NCBI GenBank assembly: GCA_030536355.1
Contig: JAUNQD010000008.1
Location: 1 to 64,000 of the forward strand
Source of the DNA: Bacillota bacterium
Lineage (GTDB): Bacteria; Bacillota; Clostridia; Peptostreptococcales; Anaerovoracaceae
Direction: 5' to 3'
DNA length: 64,000 nt
The position numbers were made by a program, and so were the translations under genes. This document shows positions 1,415 to 1,467 of this stretch, in pieces (within the stretch, counting starts at the first letter, position 1; the number at the start of each line of letters is the position of its first letter). The notes below the pieces were generated by a model. The model saw nothing but the letters and a program-made list of their open reading frames with translations. It made no database searches and had not been told where the DNA came from.

Positions 1415-1467
1415 AAGTCAGAGTCGTATGACTTGAGATTGCCACCCGATGGGGTGGCATTTTTTTT
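1415..1467 (+). promoter_or_regulatory. Leader with small hairpin and intrinsic terminator (putative attenuator or orphan riboswitch)
   Basis: The first hairpin is AAGTCA / TGACTT with loop GAGTCGTA. Twelve bases later comes GCCACCC (1441-1447), loop GATG, GGGTGGC (1452-1458) and eight T's. This is a textbook terminator placed inside the leader, 11 nt before the Shine-Dalgarno. It matches no riboswitch consensus I can recall with confidence: the loops lack the ACGR of guanidine-II, and there is no fluoride or preQ1 signature. Transcription must read through this element to express the transporter gene. Confidence 0.6.

Follow-up and report, generated by a model that had tools for sequence, protein, structure and literature searches.

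What decides whether the small transporter gene near the start of this 64,000-nucleotide stretch of Anaerovoracaceae DNA (the window) is transcribed? The preliminary description pointed to a promoter at 1375-1403, a small hairpin, a perfect terminator with eight T's and then a Shine-Dalgarno, and all of these are present in the sequence. As judged from comparative sequence analysis, the leader is probably an ON-type transcription attenuator in which a very small structured RNA, most likely a candidate orphan riboswitch, is in control. The features are as follows.

1375-1380 and 1398-1403, + strand: promoter, -35 TTGCAT and -10 TAGTAT, 17-bp spacer, assigned from the sequence
1410-1445, + strand: conserved candidate aptamer, GUGAGAAGUCAG-AGUCGUAUGACU-UGAGAUUGCCAC, predicted transcript start at 1410
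1410-1412, + strand: 5' strand of P1 (GUG), partner CAC at 1443-1445, from MFE and RNAalifold
1414 and 1442, + strand: G1414-C1442 pair, stacking above P1
1416-1419, + strand: 5' strand of P2 (AGUC), partner GAUU at 1437-1440, alignment columns 7-10/38-41, from RNAalifold
1421-1434, + strand: P3, the variable and covarying apical stem-loop, stem 1421-1425/1430-1434, loop 1426-1429
1435-1436, + strand: conserved internal-loop GA opposite A1420, unpaired in RNAalifold
1440-1467, + strand: intrinsic terminator, stem 1440-1447/1452-1459 (8 bp), 4-nt loop, T8 at 1460-1467
1478-1483, + strand: Shine-Dalgarno GGGAGG, assigned from the sequence
1490-1912, + strand: regulated transporter gene (ORF, ATG at 1490, 140 aa), EamA-like/SMR-like

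A recurrent leader before one transporter family

Of the eight terminator-like sites in the first 6 kb, where shuffled sequences give 4.0 +/- 1.6, the one at 1440-1467 is the strongest, and the leader (1405-1492) folds with a z-score of -2.9, matched by 2 of 200 shuffles. The encoded transporter resembles PF00892 over residues 16-139 (E=2.3e-5, 25.1 bits against a cut-off of 28.2), and its predicted structure is helical, with a pLDDT of 82. Farther upstream, between etfA and maf, a palindromic hairpin flanked by A and T tracts (636-666) is probably a bidirectional terminator.

The transporter was searched for in 60 related genomes, and the upstream sequences were compared. The flanks vary freely, and the core, GUGAGAAGUCAG-N(10-22)-UGAGAUUGCCAC followed by the terminator, is preserved almost to the letter. 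When the same 61 genomes were searched by pattern, 12 had the motif and none had the reversed control. Scanning 84,980 species genomes gave 51 pattern matches. Every match that bears a promoter and a terminator lies before the same transporter; these come from Clostridia (among them Lachnospiraceae, Oscillospiraceae, Peptoniphilus mikwangii and Anaerovorax odorimutans) and from Coriobacteriia/Atopobiaceae. Searches with a covariance model, covering 49 genomes of the genus and 298 of the family, yielded further variants. An almost invariant pattern, GUGAGAAGUCAG-[variable stem-loop]-UUGAGAUUGCCACC-terminator, is found at 36 loci in gut bacteria as far apart as Clostridia and Coriobacteriia, a total that omits the partial copy L223. 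At 34 of these the directly adjoining downstream gene encodes the same EamA/SMR-like transporter of ~140 aa, and the two others encode a CrcB fluoride channel (behind a variant motif) and a secreted metallophosphoesterase. Since the 36 loci recur with unrelated flanks and with a covarying stem (see below), the leader is not a chance arrangement. In the window's own genome the covariance model has no match at E<=0.01 other than the one at 1410-1467 (82 bits). A phylum-wide sample of 399 genomes contained only this copy, and the distribution of the motif is thus sparse and patchy. One other locus from the same family (L220) shares its leader and its transporter with locus L094 of Anaerovorax odorimutans. 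Judged from ORF positions, there is no conserved operon partner or neighbouring regulator gene.

Several loci depart from this arrangement. At L217 (G562) a G12A motif precedes a secreted calcineurin-like metallophosphoesterase, with no transporter. An A6G variant (L222, G699:C15) stands before two adjacent EamA-type genes, which recalls paired SMR transporters. At L200 (G451:C118) the maf-transporter neighbourhood is like that of the window, the leader is gone and the upstream region is different, a natural loss. At L125 (G066) a transporter homolog follows what may be a far-diverged copy, with the sequences GTGCGAGAGC..TATGAGATTGC and with GAGATTGC as the terminator pairing. The leader is missing from transporter paralogs of 40-45% identity (L016-L018, L025 and L026), and at L025 a divergent gene resembles a LysR-type regulator. 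Covariance-model matches of 24-31 bits in genomes of the class were mostly chance terminators and were set aside, with the exception of L049/L122, which precedes a transporter homolog. We also rejected matches in the apparent SCIFF precursor coding end beside a radical-SAM gene (L171-L173 and L224) as chance, and rpoB-like matches in Christensenellaceae as coding sequence. Among viral contigs there were 18 relaxed matches, none with both promoter and terminator.

The hairpin and the predicted switch

The preliminary description had the element start at 1415. Its hairpin is real, but the conserved element begins five bases earlier, at 1410, and extends to 1445, inside the 5' arm of the terminator; at about 30-36 nt the aptamer candidate is indeed short. 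The element at 1410-1445 is near-invariant across 33 distinct sequences. RNAalifold on these 33 sequences and, independently, the single-sequence MFE give (((.(.((((.(((((....)))))..)))).)))). as the fold of the window copy. In the first three variable pairs of P3, all 93 of 93 cells are complementary (31 sequences), against 70.9 +/- 2.2 and a maximum of 79 in 2000 shuffles, and the second pair occurs as A-U, G-C, C-G and U-A. Over the full consensus structure, 99.0% of cells pair, and pairing falls to 41-43% when the partner is slid by one column. The covariation score of the 33 sequences is 0.233 versus 0.109 in shuffles, none of 500 scoring as high, and nearly all of the signal comes from P3. 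Leaders of relatives thus hold covarying pairs, the lack of which had been named as grounds for abandoning the attenuator reading.

The lower helices change little. P1 has one two-sided change, U2-A45 to C2-G45 in L098, where the terminator is changed too, so that any apparent covariation in P1 is that of a single sequence; in L122 P1 is broken. One-sided changes that keep the pair turn G8-U40 into A8-U40 (L170 and L122) and G12-U35 into A-U (L122 and L217). Because the core is so invariant, most P1 and P2 pairs are beyond covariation testing. Mean pair probabilities are 0.92 for P1, 0.83 for P2 and 0.89 for P3. A first idea for P2, UCA:UGA, gave way to AGUC:GAUU, which agrees better with the G8A and G12A variants and with both folding programs. 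A11 and A37 are invariant, and G36 is altered only in the crcB-associated variant. The near-invariant purines that lie between the helices (A4, A6/G42 and A11/G36-A37) are probably the binding pocket, a putative site that in the window would comprise the GA at 1435-1436 with A1413 and A1415/G1441.

These features suggest how the switch may work. A -10-like hexamer, picked automatically, lies 6 nt before the first G of the motif in 23 of 31 members, mostly with a TTGACA-like -35. This near-fixed distance suggests that transcription probably begins at the motif, so that RNA polymerase would start at about 1410 and the motif itself would be the 5' end. The first 36 nt would then form a single hairpin made up of three short helices, namely P1 (GUG:CAC plus a G-C pair), P2 (AGUC:GAUU) and the variable P3. 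The 3' strand of P1 (1443-1445) lies inside the 5' arm of the terminator (1440-1447), and for this reason the hairpin and the terminator are mutually exclusive and a stabilized hairpin would delay the terminator. In isolation the hairpin is weak, with an MFE between about -5 and -13 kcal/mol for 30 of the 31 members, and the mean terminator energy in relatives is -16.9 kcal/mol. By computed energies, the hairpin forms first and the terminator prevails after 10-22 more nucleotides in 30 of 31 members. It is worth noting that A45 is kept in L062 and L105 despite a C opposite it in the terminator, which suggests that A45 probably serves the upstream hairpin.

Without ligand, the much stronger terminator would form about 10-20 nt later and transcription would stop. 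A ligand, presumably a small molecule or ion, would stabilize the hairpin and delay the terminator, and polymerase would read into the transporter gene, whose product is probably an exporter of the ligand itself or of a toxic relative of it. ON switches use the 5' side of the terminator (PMC7736828), and the arrangement of this leader matches that description, the classical ON layout. The comparison with relatives has strengthened the attenuator reading: the leader is conserved, its 5' hairpin has nucleotides in common with the terminator, and the stem covaries.

What the leader may sense

A protein and a tiny RNA-ligand sensor had both been considered possible, and sequence comparison now makes a riboswitch the more likely of the two. 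A small ligand is favoured because the known antiterminator domain is lacking and no upstream reading frame is kept, as described below. Two ligand leads, both weak, come from the genes and the transporter.

The first is a sensor of an organic cation, guanidinium or a relative, that would be functionally like the guanidine riboswitches and yet a separate RNA. We regard this as a tentative reading, on the unlikely side. In the PDB, the folds closest to the transporter model are those of the Gdx-Clo SMR guanidinium exporters, but the match is not significant (E = 2), and the acidic residue of TM1 is not kept (D/E/N/G in alignment A3). Guanidine riboswitches control SMR and MATE genes (PMC12186494), and a different leader is common to EamA homologs and MATE pumps. 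Against this, the guanidine-I, -II and -III models of Rfam are absent from the E<=5 matches in 1330-1520, and the guanidine-IV architecture is absent.

The different leader is itself unlisted. It consists of CGGGUGAGCACCUACCG (CGGGUGRRCACCUACCG) overlapping the 5' arm of a terminator. It lies before transporter homologs in other Clostridia (L118/L137, L119/L136, L123/L138, L141, L154, L147 and perhaps L109-L111 and L117) and before MATE efflux pumps in other genomes, and its transporter-linked copies have no Rfam match at gathering. It may be a second attenuator of very small size, responding to a related ligand.

Control by a protein comes next. LicT/BglG RAT antiterminator sites are small hairpins that overlap the 5' arm of a terminator. 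In the same manner, an RNA-binding protein could stabilize the present hairpin, which resembles RAT sites in its size and position, and so block the terminator; one dominant target family (34 of 36 loci) would fit a dedicated regulator. However, the CAT_RBD domain (PF03123) is absent in 12 of 12 motif-bearing genomes, by a search that found it in the controls E. coli, B. subtilis, C. glutamicum and L. lactis. The target here is also not a sugar PTS operon, the gene neighbourhood holds no conserved regulator, and the motif occurs in two phyla. We therefore consider protein control in general improbable, if still a serious competitor, and control of the LicT/BglG type unlikely.

The second ligand lead is fluoride. 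The leader would be a second class of fluoride riboswitch, and the EamA-type protein a fluoride-related transporter, which we judge quite unlikely. The lead comes from genome G449, in which a motif variant lies directly before crcB (PF02537, 95.7 bits), and from sister genomes in which the known fluoride riboswitch RF01734 precedes crcB (and an antiporter). There is only one such crcB case, however, and this copy alters the otherwise invariant G36 and may therefore differ in specificity. RF01734 precedes none of the scanned EamA homologs, G002 and G017 carry RF01734 and the motif together, and the other leader of EamA homologs is also found before MATE pumps, which are not known to export fluoride. 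The crcB-linked copy itself (L170, G449:C75:17170-17226) has the changes G8A and G36C and is followed by crcB and then a PAP2-like gene; from its sequence, a switch of ligand specificity is possible. The bolder form of the idea takes this copy as the clue to an unrelated second fluoride-sensing RNA class, 36 nt long and starting at +1, that would control a new family of EamA/SMR-like fluoride exporters. We hold this to be doubtful, with a low probability.

A partial terminator that acts constitutively, or a small and stable sRNA, neither of them sensing anything, would account for the strong terminator that always follows, but hardly for unpaired purines that are invariant or for a terminator 5' arm kept beyond the needs of the terminator, and we consider it very improbable. 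Ribosome-mediated attenuation through a leaderless 5' GUG ORF (VRSQ....-stop in most members) is extremely improbable, since the GUG at the predicted +1 and the short ORF of about 8 codons ending in UGAG in many members are outweighed by insert lengths that are not multiples of 3 in 12 of 31, a GCG in place of GUG in L098, VRSQ codons without synonymous variation, and variable codons that track base pairing.

An unlisted RNA family

The candidate riboswitch matches no Rfam family at gathering, as the preliminary description held, and nothing credible appears at E<=5 in 1330-1520. A match to the Phe leader was rejected, as it reaches 20.7 bits against a gathering cut-off of 55 and rests mainly on the terminator. 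The covariance model of RF01734 has no match in the window, in G000 or in the crcB leader L170.

Among known systems, guanidine-IV (mepA/GGAM-1) is also an ON switch that works through a terminator, in front of genes for small exporters and MATE pumps, and it too has nucleotides common to aptamer and terminator. Guanidine-IV has two hairpins joined in a kissing-loop pseudoknot, ~90 nt in all (PMC7736828, PMC11611296, PMC12186494). Here, by contrast, one 36-nt hairpin starts from the predicted +1 and the promoter abuts the motif; a single hairpin before the terminator is an architecture that rules out identity with guanidine-IV. The fluoride riboswitch RF01734 (crcB motif) is likewise a small aptamer before crcB, which the present motif precedes in one genome (G449), but the two do not match in sequence or structure, and RF01734 lies elsewhere in the genus. 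The PreQ1-I riboswitch, with an aptamer of about 35 nt, terminator control and an H-type pseudoknot, is similar in aptamer size, but the present leader has no Rfam match. In the openly searchable literature, no relevant paper with the motif sequence was among the 15 best of 37 chance-like matches, none linked COG2510 to a riboswitch and none dealt with a second fluoride class.

The leader thus appears to represent an RNA family that is new and unlisted but belongs to a known kind, a candidate terminator-controlling riboswitch with an unusually small aptamer. It is a strongly supported orphan riboswitch candidate, in which the 5' end of the aptamer apparently coincides with the transcription start. 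As sensor and switch together take up less than 60 nt, ligand screening, structure work and use as a compact genetic part should be easy. For the bacteria that carry it, the leader points to the substrate of an uncharacterised family of small transporters, because the compound that is sensed is probably the compound that the transporter handles.
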